Positions 36,208 through 43,030 of a stretch of DNA of 64,000 bases are shown here, in pieces; the stretch's first letter is position 1; each line of letters begins with the position of its first letter. The stretch spans positions 620,001 through 684,000 of the forward strand of contig NZ_AP017372.2 in the NCBI RefSeq assembly GCF_002356555.2, read 5' to 3'. The stretch comes from Halorhodospira halochloris (lineage in GTDB: Bacteria > Pseudomonadota > Gammaproteobacteria > Nitrococcales > Halorhodospiraceae). Made by a program: the position numbers and the translations under genes. The notes below the pieces were generated by a model. That model was not told the origin of the DNA. It ran no database searches and worked only from the letters and a program-made list of their open reading frames with translations.

Positions 36208-36240
36208 AGCTGGGTTAAACGCCGAACGGAGGTAAGAACT

Positions 36241-36501
36241 ATGACTGATATTCGTACGGGGCTCACTGACGAAGAGTGCCAAGAGATCCATGAGATGAAC
36301 ATGCTCGGCATGCACGCGTACTGGTCGATCGGCCTGATCGCCAACGCGCTGGCCTATGCCTGGCGTCCGTTCCACCAAGGCCGTGCCGGTAACCGCCTTG
36401 AGGACCATGCGCCGGATTACGTCCGCTCTGCTCTGACCTCGGTCCAAGAGCAAGCGAGCAGCGTAACGGCCGCTGTTCAACAAACGCCGATGGTCGGCTA
36501 A
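36241..36501 (+). CDS. pufB: LH1 antenna beta polypeptide PufB, with Asn in place of the BChl-ligand His
   Basis: An 86-residue light-harvesting 1 beta chain: LTDEECQEIHEMNMLGMHAY, a membrane span, then AYAWRPF at the periplasmic side. In ordinary beta chains the BChl ligand is the His in AHxLAWxWRPW; here the aligned segment reads IANALAYAWRPF with codon AAC, so the ligand position is Asn. The earlier conserved His (EIH, 18 residues before) is kept. About 42 residues follow WRP, whereas most beta chains end within a few residues. GGAGGTAAGAACT is a strong ribosome site. Confidence 0.93.
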   Translation: MTDIRTGLTDEECQEIHEMNMLGMHAYWSIGLIANALAYAWRPFHQGRAGNRLEDHAPDYVRSALTSVQEQASSVTAAVQQTPMVG

Positions 36502-36526
36502 CGGTAACGGCTAAGGAGATATAACC

Positions 36527-36724
36527 ATGTGGAAACTGTGGAAATTTGTTGACTTTCGCATGACTGCGGTGGGCTTCCACCTGTTCTTTGCGCTGCTGGC
36601 GTTTGCAGTGCATTTCGCCTGCATCAGCTCAGAGCGCTTTAACTGGCTTGAAGGTGCACCAGCAGCCGAGTATTACATGGATGAAGATCCCGGCATCTGG
36701 AAGCGTACTTCTTACGACGGCTAA
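36527..36724 (+). CDS. pufA: LH1 antenna alpha polypeptide PufA
   Basis: A 65-residue LH1 alpha chain: MWKLWKFVDFRMTAVGF, a hydrophobic span, and the BChl-ligating His in AFAVHFACISSERFNWLEG. The usual DPRR near the N-terminus is replaced by DFRM. A polar C-terminal tail of about 20 residues (YYMDEDPGIWKRTSYDG) faces the periplasm. AAGGAGATATAACC precedes the start. From memory, the sequence resembles the alpha chain of BChl b-containing Halorhodospira. Confidence 0.94.
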   Translation: MWKLWKFVDFRMTAVGFHLFFALLAFAVHFACISSERFNWLEGAPAAEYYMDEDPGIWKRTSYDG

Positions 36725-36740
36725 CTGTCAGCGGCTGAGA

Positions 36741-36877
36741 AGTACGCCGTCGGGGTATATTGGGAACAAGCTAAAGGCGGCTTAGCCCGACGTACCCTGA
36801 GTGAGGGCTAGCACCATAGCCCCTCGGCCAGATGGGGGATCGTTGCGGGGAGTGAGATATCACCGGGGCGATCCCCC
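36741..36877 (+). promoter_or_regulatory. pufA-pufL intercistronic hairpins
   Basis: Three stem-loops fill the 200-nt gap between pufA and pufL: GTACGCCGTCGGG with CCCGACGTAC (36742-36795), GAGGGCTA with TAGCCCCTC (36803-36825) and GGGGGATCG with CGATCCCCC (36834-36877), the last followed by TTT. In other purple bacteria an intercistronic hairpin here stabilises pufBA mRNA and limits read-through to pufLM, setting the LH1 to reaction-centre ratio. Confidence 0.7.
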
Positions 36878-36925
36878 TTTAATGGTCGGGGATAAAGAAA
36901 AGGTGCCGTGAGAGGGAATGCAGCC

Positions 36926-37765
36926 ATGGCAATGCTTGACTTTGAACGAAAGTACCGCGTAAGGGGAGGGACACTCCTCGGCGGCGACCTATTCGATTTT
37001 TGGGTAGGTCCGTTTTACGTCGGTTTCTTCGGTGTAACAGCGATCTTCTGTGCCGTATTCGGCTTTTTGATGATCGGGCTGAAGGCGGCGATATCAGAGA
37101 CGTGGAGTATCTTCCAGCTAGTGTTAGCGCCACCGAACCTAGAGAACGGTTTTGCGCTAGCGCCGCTGGATGAAGGCGGTTTATGGCAGATAGTTACCGC
37201 CTGTGCAATAGGTGCGTTTGTTAGCTGGGCGCTACGTGAGGTGGAGATCAGCCGCAAGCTAGGTATCGGCTACCACATTCCGTTTGCGTTCGGTGTAGCG
37301 ATCAGCTTCTTCGTACTGGCGCAGTTGGGCCGTCCGCTACTGCTTGGCGGTTGGGGCCATGCGTTCCCGTACGGGATCATTGCGCACCTGGACTGGGTCA
37401 ATAACGTCGGTTATCAGAACCTGCACTACCACTATCACTGGGCGCACATGCTCGGTTGCAGTCTGTTCTTTGCGACGTCGTTCGCATTGGCGCTGCACGG
37501 TGGTTTGATCCTGTCGGTAACGAACCCGAAGAAGGGCGAGGTGGTGAAGACGGCCGAGCACGAGAACACCTTCTTCCGTGACTTTGTCGGCTATTCGATT
37601 GGTAGCTTGGGCATTCACCGTTTGGGTCTTGCTCTGGCTCTGAGCACCTCGATCTCGTGTATCTTCGGGATTCTGACGACTGGCCCGTTCTGGTCGCGCG
37701 GATGGCCTGAGTGGTGGTACACGTGGTGGCCACAAATCCCAATCTGGAACTGGGGGGTAAGTTAA
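36926..37765 (+). CDS. pufL: photosynthetic reaction centre L subunit
   Basis: The ATG at 36926 ([15 protein letters not shown]) is the family start; a GTG at 36908 is six codons earlier. The 279-residue protein has five membrane helices. Ligand histidines are visible: AHLDWVNN and HYHWAHMLG for the BChls, and ALHGGLIL and GIHRLGLAL for the non-haem iron/quinone region. [19 protein letters not shown]-type N-terminal sequence is conserved. pufM follows after 1 nt. Confidence 0.96.
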
Positions 37766-37766
37766 A

Positions 37767-38729
37767 ATGGCCGAGTACCAAAACGTATTCACCCGTGTAC
37801 AGGTTCGTGGTCCAGCTGAGCAGGGTCTAGAGGTACCGGGCGGTAGCTGGAATCGGGTCGGACGTCCCCGTTTCTCGTACTTGCTGGGTAAGATTGGTGA
37901 TGCTCAGGTTGGGCCGATTTACCTGGGAGCGACAGGTGTCGTAGCTAGCTTAGGTTTTTTGATCTTCTGCCTGATGGTGGGTTTCAACTGGCTAGCTGCG
38001 GTTGACTGGTCGGTTCGCGAGGTATTTCGCCAATTCTGGTGGTTGGCGGTAGAGGTACCGCCGCCGGAGTATGGACTGCGCATTCCGCCGTTTAACGATG
38101 GTGGCTGGTTCCTTTGGGGGCTAGCGATTTGTTCGCTGTCGTTGCTGATGTGGTGGGCTCGCACGTACATTCGTGCCCGTGCCCTTGGGCTTGGCACGCA
38201 TGTGGCGTGGGCCTTTGCGGCGGCGCTGTGGTTCTACTTCATCATCACCATCATCCGTCCGGTTGCGATCGGCTCTTGGGATGAGTCGCTGCCGATCGGC
38301 ATGTTTGCTCACCTGGATTGGTTGGTAGCGATTTCGGAGCGTTACGGCAACTTCTACTACAACCCGTTCCACATGCTGTCGATAGCGTTCTGCTTTGGCT
38401 CGGCGCTGCTGTTTGCTGCGCACGGTGCGACCATATTGGCGACCGGGCGTTATAACAGTGAGCGTGAGATAGAGCAGATCACTGACCGTGGTACGGGCTC
38501 TGAGCGTGCTGCGCTGTTCTGGCGCTGGACGATGGGCTTTAACGCGACCATGGAGTCGATCCACCGCTGGGGCTACTGGATGGCGATTCTTGTCCCGCTT
38601 GTGGCCTCGATTGGTCTATTCCTTTCCGGTACGGTGATAGAGAGCTGGTACGAGTGGGGGCTGAAGCATAACTTGGTCCCGATTTATGAAGAGCTCTCCG
38701 ATCCGGCACGGAATCCGGCTGCACAATAG
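37767..38729 (+). CDS. pufM: photosynthetic reaction centre M subunit
   Basis: The 320-residue M subunit has five helices. AEYQNVFTRVQVRGP opens the protein. AHLDWLVAISERYG, NPFHMLSIAF, AAHGATIL and ESIHRWGYW provide BChl and iron ligands. A C-terminal extension of about 15 residues ends NPAAQ. With PufL it holds the special pair, accessory pigments, bacteriopheophytins and quinones. Confidence 0.96.
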   Translation: MAEYQNVFTRVQVRGPAEQGLEVPGGSWNRVGRPRFSYLLGKIGDAQVGPIYLGATGVVASLGFLIFCLMVGFNWLAAVDWSVREVFRQFWWLAVEVPPPEYGLRIPPFNDGGWFLWGLAICSLSLLMWWARTYIRARALGLGTHVAWAFAAALWFYFIITIIRPVAIGSWDESLPIGMFAHLDWLVAISERYGNFYYNPFHMLSIAFCFGSALLFAAHGATILATGRYNSEREIEQITDRGTGSERAALFWRWTMGFNATMESIHRWGYWMAILVPLVASIGLFLSGTVIESWYEWGLKHNLVPIYEELSDPARNPAAQ

Positions 38730-38741
38730 GGGGTAGGAATT

Positions 38742-39860
38742 ATGGATGGACGTTACCTGACGCGATCGCTAGCGGTAGGGGCGTTGGCAGCCGGCTTCCT
38801 GGTAGTTGCTGGTTGTGAGCGTCCGCCGTTTGAGCAAGAGCAGACGGGACCGCGTGGTACAGGCATGTACGTGCTTGATAACCCGCGGATTCTGGAGTCA
38901 CGGTTGGATCTGCACACGGCGCCGGAGGCGCGGCCGATGGCATCAGAGGACGGTGAGCGAGCTGGGGATGTTCATGAGAACGTCCAGGTGCTTGCCGATC
39001 TGAGTGATGAGCAATTCTGGCGCATCAAGGAAGAGATGACGGACTGGGTAGCCGGTGATGAGGGCTGCACCTATTGTCATACGGATGATCTGGCCAGTGA
39101 TGAGAAGTACCAGTACCGTGTCTCACGCGACATGATCGAGATGACGCGGTACTTGAACGCCAACTGGGCGGATACTCACCTGACTCACTCGAATGAAGCC
39201 GGTGTAACTTGTTACACCTGCCACCGTGGTGAGCCGATTCCGCCGGCCTCGTGGCACTCCGAGGAGGAGTCTGGTGAGACGCGGTTCATGACCGGTATGG
39301 GTGATCTGCAGCTGCAGAACAAGATCAGCTCCAAGACCGCCTATACGGCATTCCCGCGTGATGCCCTGGACACCTTCTTGGTTGGCCATGAGGGTGAGCT
39401 GTCGATCGTCGGTGAGGGTGAAGGTGGCTTGCGCACTGCGACTACGGAGGGTGTAAGCCTGCGTGAGGCCTACGAGGCGGTAGGTCTGATGATGCACCTG
39501 AGCTACTCACTCGACGCTGGCTGTACGCTTTGCCACAACGTCAGCCGCTGGGCGAGCTGGGAGGATAGTCCGAAGGAGCGGGAGACCGCTTGGCACGGTA
39601 TCCGCATGGCTCGTGATATCAACGTCAACTGGATCAACCCGTTGATTGACGAGTATCCTGAGGACGCGGATGTTCTCGGCCCGACCGGTGACGTAGGCAA
39701 GGTCAGCTGCCAGACTTGCCACAATAAGGAGCGTCGTCCGCTCTACGGCGAGGAGTTCCTGGAGCTCTATCCGGAGCTCGTCGGCGAGCCGGACCCTGAC
39801 TTCGACTACCTGCAGTTTGGTGACCTTGGCACCGATCTGCTCAAGGGTGTGAATGACTAA
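38742..39860 (+). CDS. pufC: reaction-centre tetraheme cytochrome c subunit
   Basis: PufC re-reduces the special pair. The 372-residue precursor has a lipoprotein signal peptide ending VVAGC (Cys near 25), so it is anchored by lipid in the periplasm. Four haem motifs are visible: CTYCH (about 109), CYTCH (about 156), CTLCH (about 260) and CQTCH (about 323). TRYLNANWADTHLTHSNEAG-type and WHGIRMARDINVNW blocks fit the repeat structure of the family. Two hairpins follow the gene. Confidence 0.95.
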   Translation: MDGRYLTRSLAVGALAAGFLVVAGCERPPFEQEQTGPRGTGMYVLDNPRILESRLDLHTAPEARPMASEDGERAGDVHENVQVLADLSDEQFWRIKEEMTDWVAGDEGCTYCHTDDLASDEKYQYRVSRDMIEMTRYLNANWADTHLTHSNEAGVTCYTCHRGEPIPPASWHSEEESGETRFMTGMGDLQLQNKISSKTAYTAFPRDALDTFLVGHEGELSIVGEGEGGLRTATTEGVSLREAYEAVGLMMHLSYSLDAGCTLCHNVSRWASWEDSPKERETAWHGIRMARDINVNWINPLIDEYPEDADVLGPTGDVGKVSCQTCHNKERRPLYGEEFLELYPELVGEPDPDFDYLQFGDLGTDLLKGVND

Positions 39861-39885
39861 AGGCTAGCTGAGAATCGGTCCTATT

Positions 39886-39906
39886 GAGGGGGCACCCAGC
39901 CCCCTC
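39886..39906 (+). terminator. hairpin just after pufC
   Basis: GAGGGGGC, loop ACCCA, GCCCCCTC gives a perfect 8-bp stem 26 nt after the pufC stop. It lacks a T tract and more likely protects the mRNA 3' end or slows polymerase than terminates alone. Confidence 0.55.
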
Positions 39907-39968
39907 GGGTCCAACATAACGCGAAGCCGATAGACTCTTCATTACCCGAAGAGGTCAGGATATAAAAC

Positions 39969-40003
39969 AACGGCGCCATGCTTGAAAGCATGGCGCCGTT
40001 TTG
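39969..40003 (+). terminator. Rho-independent terminator of the puf operon
   Basis: AACGGCGCCATGCT, loop TGAA, AGCATGGCGCCGTT is a perfect 14-bp stem followed by TTTTG (with A-rich sequence on the other side). It is the strongest terminator in the window and closes the bchC-puf unit about 110 nt after pufC. Confidence 0.85.
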
Positions 40004-40066
40004 CATTGCAGACATAATTATAGATATTCATGATTGTCCGCGCCCTTAAAGCCAAGCGAGGGTTGA

Positions 40067-40085
40067 GTGGGCTTCTATGCCGCAC
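40067..40085 (+). promoter_or_regulatory. conserved upstream motif, copy 1
   Basis: GTGGGCTTCTATGCCGCAC lies 130 nt ahead of the first microprotein start. Its ends are complementary (GTG...CAC). Nearly the same 19 nt occur at 41642 and 42302, each about 120-135 nt before a related microprotein gene. No similar copy was noticed elsewhere in the window. Confidence 0.6.
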
Positions 40086-40214
40086 ACCTAGATAAGGGTT
40101 ATGTGCGATAATTGATTTGCAAGCTGTAGTGAGAGATACCGCTCTTCTCCAGCTGGCTAGAAAATGCTTAAGAGCACCAAGAAGTAGAGACTACAACCGC
40201 ATAAGGGGGTTTCT

Positions 40215-40295
40215 ATGGATGCCACGATCGTAGTAGCTATATTAGTGGTAATGGCGGTAGCTGGGTTCATTCCTTGCCTAAAGCGTAGAGTGTAA
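40215..40295 (+). CDS. single-span microprotein, copy 1 (candidate LH1 accessory polypeptide)
   Basis: A 26-codon frame: MDATIVVAILVVMAVAGF, then a basic end CLKRRV. AAGGGGG lies 6 nt ahead of the ATG. It is the most diverged of three related microproteins (others at 41793 and 42442), sharing DAxIVVAxLVxMAxxG. The hydrophobic span of about 17 residues with a positively charged C-terminus predicts a single membrane helix with the C-terminus in the cytoplasm. The conserved coding pattern, ribosome site, shared upstream motif and downstream hairpin support a real gene just after the puf operon. Confidence 0.7.
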   Translation: MDATIVVAILVVMAVAGFIPCLKRRV

Positions 40296-40921
40296 GGCTT
40301 GGGATAGCTGATCAGCCGAGCTGGCGGGGTTTATACCTCGCCGGCTCAGCAGCTTGCATTCTCGCCGGCTCAACGCAAATGACGTAACTACGATGCTCTG
40401 AGAAAGCAATCATAAGCTGCCGTTTGGTACATAATAGCTAGATATAAGCTCCAAGGCAGTTTTCCATTGTGCCTCTCACGTACACCCATTCCGCACTCTC
40501 TCTCACTACTCCTTGGTTGGTTGTGATGAGCTTCTCCCTACTAGAGGCGCTCCAAGGGGGGGATTTGGCTCGAGGGGTGTTTTGGAGGCGCCCATATGGC
40601 ATATGTTGCACTATGCGTTAATCAAGCAAAGCACTATACCGAAAGTGGTTGCCCCTCGCCTGCGGCGCGTCTTAAAGACGCAGTGATTTAGGTGTTGTAA
40701 ACCGTTTAAAGTGTTTAGGATGGACGGGTATAGGTCTGTCGAGCTGGCTGCGGTAAGCCGCCCTATCATTTGTAAAGACCTAAGAAGCAGCCGGGGTAGG
40801 GTGTTCTGGTATCATATAGTCGTTTGGCTCCCTATTTAGGATTTTGAGCTATCCTAGCAGCATGACAATATTCTCAGGAATATGAACCTGTAAATGGTTT
40901 CTTTTCACGGAGGTGGCCACT
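40296..40921. other. 626-nt region without recognised gene
   Basis: After the microprotein hairpin there are no convincing frames. An inverted repeat GGCGCTCCAA / TTGGAGGCGCC spans 40546-40592, and a small palindrome GCGTCTTAAAGACGC lies near 40667-40681. The stretch is more A/T-rich than the flanking operons. No tRNA fold was recognised. A small RNA or a relic of the palindromic elements cannot be excluded. Confidence 0.5.
40318..40347 (+). terminator. hairpin after microprotein copy 1
   Basis: GAGCTGGCGGGG and CCTCGCCGGCTC pair across the loop TTTATA (two G-U type pairs), 22 nt after the stop. There is no T tract. CGCCGGCTCA is repeated about 25 nt downstream. Confidence 0.5.
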
Positions 40922-41632
40922 ATGAGTGATAATGTGAACGATAAAGGTGGAACAAGATCAACTGCGGGTGCTGGGCAAGAAGACAAGACTACTGGCGGGC
41001 CAGCAACCGAAACGGGTAGCAAGGAGCAAGGCAGCCCAGCAGGGTCAAGTAAGGCTAGCCAGGCTAAACCTGCGGGTGGGGCAACAAAAGGATCGAGCGC
41101 TTCTTCTGCGGCTAGCAAAGCAGACTCTAATGCTACCGCCGGAGGGTCAGCTGCTCAGGAGGAAAATAAGGCAACTACCGGACAAACAGCGGACACGAGC
41201 TCAGGGGGTTCTACAACAGCTTCATCGCAGGGGCAGGGTCAGTCCTCCGCGGCAAGTAGCTCGACCAGTGGCGCAAAGGCTAGCCCCTCTGCAGGCCCGA
41301 GCACTAACCCAGAGCAAGTCGAGAATACCGCCACTGTGGCTTCGTATATCGTTGGTGCTGTGACAGGTCTGATGTACCTCCTGGCGCACCGCGATAAGCC
41401 AAGGGTTAGATTTCATGCTAGTAGATCGATCCTGATCACTGTGGTTATCGTTGCGGCATGGCTAGTTGTCTCGTTGCTAAAAACTACAGTTGCAGGCATC
41501 CCTCTTGTGCTTTGGGCAGGTTTTGCATTCCTGATTTATATGGCCGTTTTGGCATTCAAGGGCACTACTTTGGAGATTCCTTTCCTAGACGACTATGTCA
41601 AGAAGTTCTCTGAAAAGATGTCTCCGAAGTGA
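40922..41632 (+). CDS. DUF4870/Tic20-like membrane protein with long low-complexity N-terminus
   Basis: The ATG at 40922 follows CACGGAGGTGGCC; the product has 236 residues. Residues 1 to about 135 are almost entirely Ser, Thr, Ala, Gly, Gln, Lys and Glu, with no hydrophobic segment, so probably disordered. From ENTATVASYIVGAVTGLMYL the sequence becomes a three-span domain like DUF4870 (related to Tic20): RFHASRSILI near 160 and a final LEIPFLDDYVKKFSEKM. The function of this family is unknown. It sits between microprotein copies 1 and 2. Confidence 0.75.
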   Translation: MSDNVNDKGGTRSTAGAGQEDKTTGGPATETGSKEQGSPAGSSKASQAKPAGGATKGSSASSAASKADSNATAGGSAAQEENKATTGQTADTSSGGSTTASSQGQGQSSAASSSTSGAKASPSAGPSTNPEQVENTATVASYIVGAVTGLMYLLAHRDKPRVRFHASRSILITVVIVAAWLVVSLLKTTVAGIPLVLWAGFAFLIYMAVLAFKGTTLEIPFLDDYVKKFSEKMSPK

Positions 41633-41641
41633 TGCGACAAT

Positions 41642-41660
41642 GTGGGCGCCTATGCCACAT
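41642..41660 (+). promoter_or_regulatory. conserved upstream motif, copy 2
   Basis: GTGGGCGCCTATGCCACAT, preceded by AT, gives a clear dyad ATGTGG...CCACAT. It lies 132 nt ahead of microprotein copy 2 and directly after the stop of the DUF4870-like gene. See copies at 40067 and 42302. Confidence 0.6.
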
Positions 41661-41792
41661 GCCTTTGTGGTAAGTGGTATGGCAGCATTTAGAGTGCAGG
41701 CTGGCAGTTGCAGATCTTGATAATGAGTTCTGGCTACCGGCGTGCTTGCATAGACCAATATGCACCAAAACCTATATTAAGGGAGGTTTAAC

Positions 41793-41882
41793 ATGGGTGA
41801 CGCAGGAATTGTAGTAGCAGTTCTAGTAATCTTGGCCATCCTTGGCTGGCCGAATATCTCCAGCACCCTGCGGCGCTGGTAA
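41793..41882 (+). CDS. single-span microprotein, copy 2 (candidate LH1 accessory polypeptide)
   Basis: A 29-codon frame: MGDAGIVVAVLVILAILGW, then PNISSTLRRW. AAGGGAGG lies 9 nt before the ATG. It is almost identical to copy 3 (one amino-acid difference, Leu for Met at about residue 14), with several synonymous differences, a sign of protein-level selection. One membrane helix with a basic, Trp-terminated C-terminus is predicted. Tiny single-span proteins of this type are known as LH1 accessory chains (for example gamma in Blastochloris viridis); that role here is inferred from context only. Confidence 0.75.
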   Translation: MGDAGIVVAVLVILAILGWPNISSTLRRW

Positions 41883-41892
41883 GTGCCTCTTG

Positions 41893-41927
41893 TGCACGAC
41901 CTGGCCATCAAGTGGCTGGGTCGTGCA
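41893..41927 (+). terminator. hairpin after microprotein copy 2
   Basis: TGCACGACC and GGGTCGTGCA close a stem that continues inside with GGCCA/TGGC around loop TCAAG, 11 nt after the stop codon. It has no T tract but is the only structure between this gene and the next. Confidence 0.6.
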
Positions 41928-42301
41928 AGTCGATAGTCGATAGTAAAGATAGGCTCAACGGGTAGCGGGTAGTCCTTACTAAAATGGCTACGATTGACGC
42001 TCGAATGCAGGCAGCGATCAAAAGTTTTTATCCCTCTCCATCCTCCCCTCTTCTTTTAATTATCCGAATACAAGCAGTTAACTGGGTTCGTTGGTACTAC
42101 CCGAGGCTATTAGCTCAAAAGATACGGGCAGCTACAGTCAGAATCACAAGCTGCCCACACATCTATACACTGTCTATTTAATCTCCTCGGTACAAATCCA
42201 AATTCGATGATTTTCTGTGGGAGGAAAATCACAGCTGACGATTTTTCTAGCAGTGAAATCCTCCAGTTAGATATCAAGTATTACAGAATTATTTGCATGC
42301 A
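41928..42301. other. 374-nt region without recognised gene
   Basis: An A/T-rich stretch between microprotein copies 2 and 3. A 65-codon frame at 41984-42181 has no ribosome site and an ordinary random composition, so it is not called. An interrupted inverted repeat GATTTTC / GAAAATC is near 42210-42230. Otherwise nothing recognised up to the conserved motif at 42302. Confidence 0.45.
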
Positions 42302-42320
42302 GTGAGCGCCTATGCCGCAC
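42302..42320 (+). promoter_or_regulatory. conserved upstream motif, copy 3
   Basis: GTGAGCGCCTATGCCGCAC lies 121 nt ahead of microprotein copy 3. It differs from copies 1 and 2 at only three positions each. About 25 nt downstream, copies 2 and 3 also share TATGGCA, which could form a second half-site with TATGCC. Confidence 0.6.
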
Positions 42321-42441
42321 ATTACCGGCCAGCATAATATGGCAAGATAATAACTGCACGCCGGCGGCCTGGTACTTCAAGGTGGAGGCTGTCGGTATGC
42401 AGGTAAGAAAACAAACCTGATGATCAATTTTGGAGGTTCAC

Positions 42442-42531
42442 ATGGGTGACGCAGGAATTGTAGTAGCAGTTCTAGTAATTATGGCCATCCTTGGCTGGCC
42501 GAACATCTCCAGCACCTTGCGCCGCTGGTAA
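42442..42531 (+). CDS. single-span microprotein, copy 3 (candidate LH1 accessory polypeptide)
   Basis: A 29-codon frame: MGDAGIVVAVLVIMAILGW, then PNISSTLRRW. TGGAGG lies 6 nt before the ATG. The first 40 nt are identical to copy 2, and later differences are mostly synonymous (AAT/AAC, CTG/TTG, CGG/CGC), pointing to a fairly recent duplication under purifying selection. Its own hairpin terminator follows, so it is probably monocistronic. Confidence 0.75.
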   Translation: MGDAGIVVAVLVIMAILGWPNISSTLRRW

Positions 42532-42542
42532 GGTGAAGAATG

Positions 42543-42587
42543 GCCTCGATCAGGCCACCCCAGAAGCGGTCTGATCGAGGCTTTATT
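42543..42587 (+). terminator. Rho-independent terminator after microprotein copy 3
   Basis: GCCTCGATCAG (42543-42553) pairs perfectly with CTGATCGAGGC (42571-42581) and is followed by TTTATT, 11 nt after the stop codon. Confidence 0.8.
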
Positions 42588-43030
42588 GGAGTTCTAGGAA
42601 TCCGCAGTGCATACCTCCCGATCTTAACCTTATTGTCTCAGCCCTCCCTCCCCTGTTAGAGCAGACGCTCCGGCAACAGCCTACGATCCGCCGCATGCCG
42701 CATGCCGCATGCCGCATGCCGCATGCCCCGTAAGTAGGGCTTGAGCGGCTGATATGCGGATCTACCGCTTTATTTGGTTAGTTTTAATTATGGGGGGCGA
42801 GAATTAGTCAAGTTGTGGCATTTTCACCACAAATCAGATCCCAGTGGAAAGTGGCGTCTCGGCAGTATAGAAGCGAGCAGCGTCTGGACTTTGGCAAGGC
42901 TTGTAGCTCCTTGTCCAATAAATTGGTGCGCAATCAGACAGAGCATTTTGATTGCCAGATTATAAGGGCGGAGTGATAATTGCGTTGTCACGATAAAAAC
43001 TCTCGGCACAACTCAGCCTGGAGGGGCATA
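42588..43030. other. 443-nt region without recognised gene
   Basis: This contains a heptanucleotide tandem repeat at 42691-42727 and otherwise A/T-rich sequence. A 63-codon plus-strand frame (42774-42965) lacks a ribosome site and recognisable character and is not called. It ends in the terminator at 43031. Confidence 0.45.
42691..42727 (+). repeat. tandem heptamer CCGCATG, five units
   Basis: CCGCATG is repeated five times without interruption, ending CC. Each junction creates GCATGC, a six-base palindrome. It is a small slippage-prone array in a non-coding region. Confidence 0.85.

Follow-up and report, generated by a model that had tools for sequence, protein, structure and literature searches.

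No photosynthetic organisms are known to absorb at longer wavelengths than the bacteriochlorophyll b (BChl b)-containing Halorhodospira, and gamma-type subunits have been put forward as one reason for this. Downstream of a puf operon in a 64,000-nt stretch of the Halorhodospira halochloris genome (the window, to which coordinates refer unless a genome or contig is named), a sequence-only reading had pointed to three tiny related genes and proposed that they encode extra, gamma-like subunits of light-harvesting complex 1 (LH1) or the reaction centre (RC). We asked what these genes encode and what ties them together. Genes 2 and 3 can be assigned to the LH1 gamma subunit of H. halochloris, by identity of its product for gene 2. 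The best overall explanation, which we hold with considerable confidence, adds that gene 1 likely encodes another subunit and that the tiny subunits would be co-regulated through a shared upstream element.

Small genes downstream of puf and the LH1 gamma subunit

The three genes lie on the plus strand at 40215..40295 (gene 1, encoding the 26-residue gamma-like protein MDATIVVAILVVMAVAGFIPCLKRRV), 41793..41882 (gene 2, 29 residues) and 42442..42531 (gene 3, 29 residues); frames of 26, 29 and 29 codons are thus present where the sequence-only reading had placed them. All three lie downstream of the presumed pufC frame, whose end is at 39860, which fits the claim of several copies encoded outside puf. 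An alignment groups their products in a single family, characterised by a conserved helix core, a Gly-Pro turn and a basic end, and they share the DAxIVVAxLVxxAxxG pattern that had been described. Each has a single hydrophobic stretch (hydropathy maximum 2.96-3.20 over 15 residues), as predicted for a single membrane-spanning helix. A purine-rich ribosome site precedes each ATG and a plus-strand hairpin follows each frame, also as claimed, at 40315..40350 for gene 1 (fold z = -3.7) and, as inverted repeats, at 41893..41927 for gene 2 (z = -4.7) and 42543..42581 for gene 3 (z = -2.2).

The operon upstream (36241..39860, plus strand) has the order pufB, A, L, M, C, in which pufB, L and C were assigned from order, size and visible sequence, and only M and A were compared with PDB entry 8K5O. 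Its M chain matches the 8K5O M chain over the full length (E 1.3e-222), and its alpha polypeptide matches the 8K5O alpha (chain w) end to end; the entry holds 16 chains of this alpha and one chain of a different alpha. The earlier suggestion of a Halorhodospira-type organism was therefore correct. The product of gene 2 is identical to 8K5O chain v, "Gamma subunit of light-harvesting 1", at 29/29 residues, and that of gene 3 at 28/29, with Met in place of Leu14 as the sole difference. Because the gene 2 product is identical to chain v, gene 2 codes for LH1 gamma. The structure paper for 8K5O is reportedly that of Qi et al. (2024). The gamma subunit itself was thus already known from the structure, as the sequence-only reading had guessed might be the case. 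With 16 gamma chains and 16 window-type alpha chains, the entry contains about one gamma per alpha-beta pair, as in Blastochloris-type gamma. An excerpt of a further paper likewise describes 8K5O as an H. halochloris complex with alpha, beta and gamma polypeptides (PMC12817894).

The synonymous bias between genes 2 and 3 had been taken as a sign of selection on the protein. The two frames do differ in five codons, four of them synonymous, yet by itself this comparison is weak evidence, since 166 of 5000 simulations with the same number of base changes gave as few amino-acid changes. Comparison with Halorhodospira abdelmalekii (G001), scored in the same way, is stronger. Gene 1 and its syntenic 26-residue counterpart differ by 7 amino-acid changes for 21 base changes (6/5000 simulations), gene 2 and the H. 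abdelmalekii gamma gene by 4 for 16 (1/5000), and gene 3 and that same gamma gene by 5 for 20 (0/5000), the last two tests not being independent. The frames of the two species diverge chiefly at third positions. Gene order is also the same as in the window: the end of pufC is followed by a 26-codon gene 1, a gene with a DUF4870-like domain and a 29-codon gamma gene, with one gamma gene where H. halochloris has two. The frames are therefore conserved in a related genome, and these results confirm that genes 1-3 are real genes under purifying selection and not chance frames.

Genes 2 and 3 are each a self-contained unit with its own upstream element, ribosome site, frame and 3' hairpin; having two near-identical gamma genes probably helps to supply gamma in roughly the 16-fold excess over reaction centres required by the ring. 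The analogy with Blastochloris viridis makes it most likely that gamma packs the BChl b antenna more tightly and helps to push its absorption past 1000 nm.

An upstream element shared by small-subunit genes

Reading of the leaders revealed GTGGGCGCCTATGCCGCACA, or near variants of it, 140-159 bases upstream of the ATG in the three window genes and two H. abdelmalekii genes. In the window, the element stands on the plus strand at 40067..40086 before gene 1 (GTGGGCTTCTATGCCGCACA; 2 mismatches, 148 bases to the ATG), at 41642..41661 before gene 2 (GTGGGCGCCTATGCCACATG; 3 mismatches, 151 bases, and the weakest of nine cores) and at 42302..42321 before gene 3 (GTGAGCGCCTATGCCGCACA; 1 mismatch, 140 bases). 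When the whole H. halochloris genome (G000, 2.83 Mb) was searched for this ~20-bp element with up to 3 mismatches, only four matches were found, compared to one for the reversed control, and three of the four are those upstream of genes 1-3. The fourth, for which there had been no prior hint, stands 148 bases ahead of a gene of 31 codons, and the product of that gene is identical to 8K5O chain 2 at 31/31 residues; the entry names this chain "reaction center small polypeptide". A divergent 29-codon neighbour has a mirrored element 166 bases before its ATG, and its product matches 8K5O chain 9 across its 29 residues. Chains 2 and 9 are reportedly the proteins called G and Q in the structure paper. 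The pair lies at 2,092.7-2,093.3 kb of contig C1 of G000, and H. abdelmalekii has the same divergent pair, with elements 165 and 191 bases upstream. No match was found in G002 or G003, the only two other genus genomes searched for the element (reversed controls: one in G001, none in G002 and one in G003).

An 11-base core of the element occurs four times in the H. halochloris genome, always at small-subunit genes (the core of gene 2 is a variant), and five times in G001, four of them at such genes; reversed controls gave one and zero matches, respectively. The remaining G001 match, on contig C41, lies within a coding gene and was treated as a chance match. About 1.4-1.5 chance matches to an 11-mer are expected per genome, and the weight of the argument therefore rests on the 20-mer and the gene products. 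A profile built from the nine element sites returned those nine in the two genomes and nothing else at E <= 10 among the candidates scored. Because the nine sites trained the profile, the informative part of this result is that no further match appeared. The matches in the window are not proof of the element by themselves; the case is carried by the search of the whole genome with the 20-mer.

Together, these results suggest that the element marks genes for single-span RC-LH1 subunits. It is present at each of the genes named above, and we infer that it has a regulatory function, as a common activator site for the small-subunit genes. Genes 1-3 and the two "reaction center small polypeptide" genes would then probably be co-regulated as one set. 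A site of the RegA/PrrA type is one possibility: when a GCG inverted repeat with a spacer was looked for, one strict half-site pattern fitted three of the seven elements tested, and excerpts of two papers report no firm consensus for the target of these regulators (PMC4263372, PMC5506826). A sigma-54 type promoter in the leaders was judged by eye and rejected because the spacing does not fit. A sigma-70 scan of 39860-42700 gave 5 sites against 2.9 expected, including one at 41751-41778 directly before gene 2, and none at the upstream elements.

At the other end of the genes, structure was scored by folding the 80 bases past each stop codon against 100 dinucleotide shuffles. Eight of the 11 small genes folded in this way have z-scores from -2.2 to -6.7, two are weak (-1.5 and -1.7), and a fourth family member in H. 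abdelmalekii, described below, has no surplus structure (+1.1). A terminator scan that requires a short loop and a T run calls none of the three hairpins of genes 1-3, which could equally well stabilise the messages.

Two further observations concern the sequences around these genes. A short tandem array of GCATGCC units at 42690-42730, past gene 3, resembles the core of the element. The deposited chain 9 has 33 residues, which fits a longer frame beginning MEGHMDVV (its first four residues lie outside the comparison made above; L028 1197-1298 and L031 1240-1347 in the two species, both on the minus strand). A ribosome site, GAGGGG/GGAGG, lies within the first codons of this longer frame, and the start conserved between the species gives 29 residues, so the deposited chain may begin four codons too early.

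Gene 1, an unlinked fourth member and competing explanations

Gene 1 is three residues shorter than gamma and lacks the RRW-type end, with the helix core conserved. In a search of PDB chains, its product had only a weak match to the 8K5O gamma (E 0.12). Searches with genes 1, 2 and 4 gave no match in NCBIfam; the single Pfam match, PF12669 with gene 1, had E 0.21 and fell short of that family's cut-off. A family profile run on the H. halochloris genome returned four strong matches (E 3.6e-13 or better), every one a row of the profile; two weak matches at 1869424 and 1072429 (E 0.24 and 0.52) were taken as chance, and so were others at 251997 and 1835152. The fourth strong match is a 29-residue gamma-like gene, MTCSTLVVAVLVLLAAAGSPAVASRFRKY, on the minus strand at G000:C1:2376360-2376446 (L003 1498-1587), with a counterpart in H. 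abdelmalekii (contig C60 of G001; L009 1489-1578). It is unlinked to puf, and its neighbours differ between the two species. The two frames differ by 6 amino-acid changes for 33 base changes, which none of 5000 simulations equalled, a clear sign of selection. The predicted masses are 2786.5 Da for the product of gene 1, 3121.7 and 3139.8 Da for those of genes 2 and 3, and 2995.6 Da for that of the fourth gene, each 28 Da higher with a formyl group. No upstream element was found at this gene in either species by leader reading or by 20-mer, core and profile searches, and no PDB chain equals its product. The possibility that gene 1 or the fourth gene encodes one of the other small chains of 8K5O was ruled out, as both match only the 8K5O gamma, and weakly.

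The proposal of gamma-like subunits thus stands for genes 2 and 3 and is conditional for gene 1. Because the element marks genes for single-span RC-LH1 subunits, gene 1 is likely a subunit gene as well; its family, position, conservation and upstream element all point the same way. We infer that it is most likely a shorter, diverged relative of gamma and an undescribed LH1-RC subunit, perhaps a minor, condition-dependent or special-site component. Its absence from the 8K5O model does not demonstrate absence from the cell. Gene 1 and the fourth gene would both be variant subunits.

Alternatively, gene 1 could have descended from gamma and now encode a small membrane protein or assembly factor, produced along with the photosystem without entering the ring. 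Its shorter, RRW-less product and the lack of an equal PDB chain would fit such a role, as would its place next to a conserved membrane protein gene, a possible assembly partner. The adjoining gene (40922..41632, plus strand) lies between genes 1 and 2 and encodes a protein whose N-terminus is of low complexity and which also has a DUF4870-like membrane domain (E 0.011, short of the curated cut-off); the listed open reading frame begins at GTG 40913, and ATG 40922 was taken from the sequence. It has a counterpart in the same place in H. abdelmalekii. At least one relative occurs in all nine genus genomes, and in both BChl b species one stands between gene 1 and gamma. We nevertheless regard an assembly role as unlikely, because each of the other four element-bearing genes in this genome encodes an 8K5O chain or a protein one residue off, and gene 1 retains the helix core of gamma.

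For the gamma pair, the question is whether one copy, gene 3 or else gene 2, is redundant and has no role of its own, being kept in step by gene conversion. Across ribosome site and frame, 95 of 102 bases are identical and the flanks have diverged; the leader of gene 3 is also closer to that of the single H. abdelmalekii gamma gene (z 7.3) than is the leader of gene 2 (z 5.3). Homology nearly limited to the ribosome site and frame, together with this leader pattern, points to gene conversion, or else to the frame having been replaced recently. Both genes have nevertheless retained element, ribosome site and hairpin, and redundancy is compatible with a dose effect in that the extra dose can itself be the role. 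A copy without any role is a minority possibility, though one to be taken seriously.

The element itself might not be a regulatory site but be left over from the duplications by which the small genes spread. The products are loosely alike in their helix, G-x-P and basic end, so that shared ancestry extending into the upstream DNA is conceivable, and leader sequence beyond the element, in a stretch that includes the ribosome site, is more alike than in shuffles for 8 of the 10 pairs among the five gamma-type genes (<=2/300 shuffles reach the score). The exceptions are gene 1 versus gene 3 (91/300) and gene 1 between the species (10/300). In the latter pair, 18 of the element's 20 bases are retained whereas the remaining leader has largely drifted, which speaks for function. 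The cores also stand out in an alignment of all nine leaders, and the fourth gamma-like gene belongs to the family yet has no element. A mere remnant is, in our judgement, improbable.

Several points count against the explanation that we prefer, in which the element ties together the genes of gamma, gene 1 and the two RC polypeptides. The element does not map one-to-one onto the family, one member of which is without it, and leader likeness beyond the element is explicable by shared descent. A 16-base form of the element with 3 mismatches gives four matches in the window against 1.17 expected, but 2 of 100 shuffles also reach four, and one of the matches, at 889, is far from the small genes. 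Of the first-look candidates in the two genomes, the nine-site profile scored only 150 out of 309 and 150 out of 325, and the case for co-regulation is a sequence-based one. No PDB chain equals gene 1, which as a subunit would have to be unmodelled in 8K5O. For the Halorhodospira red shift, excerpts of the Blastochloris work show that its authors favoured a different, electrostatic route (PMC9788563). No sequence relation to Blastochloris gamma was found, and the red-shift role is thus assigned by analogy. We would give roughly even odds to a more specific proposal: that a private element of BChl b Halorhodospira switches on the tiny-subunit genes (gamma twice, the 26-residue variant and two RC polypeptides), that at least one subunit is structurally unseen, and that the element-free fourth gamma may, in different conditions, replace gamma to tune absorption.

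Distribution and comparison with known small subunits

At E <= 0.01, a profile search found the gamma family in 2 of 54 genomes of the order (with scoring limited to 150 first-look candidates in eight of the 54), and the pair of genes for chains 2 and 9 occurs in the same two. Both species are named as BChl b-containing in an excerpt of PMC9788563. With the same profile, seven of the nine genus genomes lack the family, three of them being at most 83% complete; two weak matches in G007 were absent at this threshold. A scan of genome contigs with one short peptide pattern found only H. abdelmalekii, and distant relatives, for instance in other BChl b gammaproteobacteria, could escape such a pattern.

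The H. halochloris genome has a second puf operon (G000:C1:1787790-1791599) with 96.5% DNA identity to window positions 36225-40002 and an identical M (1789364). The homology stops at 40002, before gene 1, at a 15-bp inverted repeat (39969-40000), and no gamma genes beside the second operon came up when this genome was searched with the profile.

Beyond what the sequence-only reading had noticed, the locus led to the upstream element, two further small-subunit genes marked by it and a fourth family member. The paralogues and an element tying tiny subunits together may be new: no description of them was found in the literature searched, and since the structure paper was outside that search we do not claim that they are unpublished. 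The element can serve to locate the full complement of tiny subunit genes. Four versions occur here of a gamma family that is not related in sequence to that of Blastochloris, in a genome that is stated, in excerpts of a 2022 paper, to lack an orthologue of Blastochloris gamma (PMC9788563). The same source notes that a small polypeptide of similar size was once isolated from H. halochloris RC-LH1, its sequence unpublished. The Halorhodospira family supplies the missing gamma gene, without detectable relation to Blastochloris gamma. A seven-member family profile run against the PDB gave only the 8K5O gamma below E 0.1 and no Blastochloris chain up to E 10; the other six sequences up to E 10 were Nef and phage coat proteins, and 6ET5 was present via its alpha, its gamma chain being unchecked.

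Excerpts of PMC9788563 provide the closest functional comparison. Of the four gamma genes of B. viridis, three are clustered and one is divergent. Without these genes, the organism absorbs at 972 nm instead of 1018 nm in white light and assembles no LH1 under halogen light; the divergent gene supplied from a plasmid gives 1003 nm, and tuning of absorption by a variant gamma was suggested for this fourth gene. Gene 1 and the unlinked gene, both without a structure, bear on whether variant gammas could do the same in Halorhodospira.

As in B. viridis, the H. halochloris gamma is a small LH1 protein about equimolar with alpha and beta, encoded by several genes in a BChl b host (PMC9788563, excerpts). 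It has 29 residues in contrast to 36 in B. viridis, with no detected sequence match, and its genes lie within ~2.7 kb of pufC, whereas those of Blastochloris are far from the photosynthesis gene cluster. Relative to the 8K5O gamma, the product of gene 2 is identical and that of gene 3 one residue off, whereas the two diverged paralogues, gene 1 and the unlinked fourth gene, have no equal PDB chain. The genes of 8K5O chains 2 and 9 share the upstream element with the gamma type, and the chains themselves are of comparable size and likewise have a hydrophobic stretch, a G-x-P and a basic end, but they belong to other sequence families, are present as one chain each and are encoded by a divergent pair away from the window puf. 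PufX, PufY and protein W are also small extra parts of RC-LH1. These proteins create a quinone channel (PMC9788563, excerpts), in contrast to gamma with its 16 copies, a contrast drawn without individual sequence comparison.

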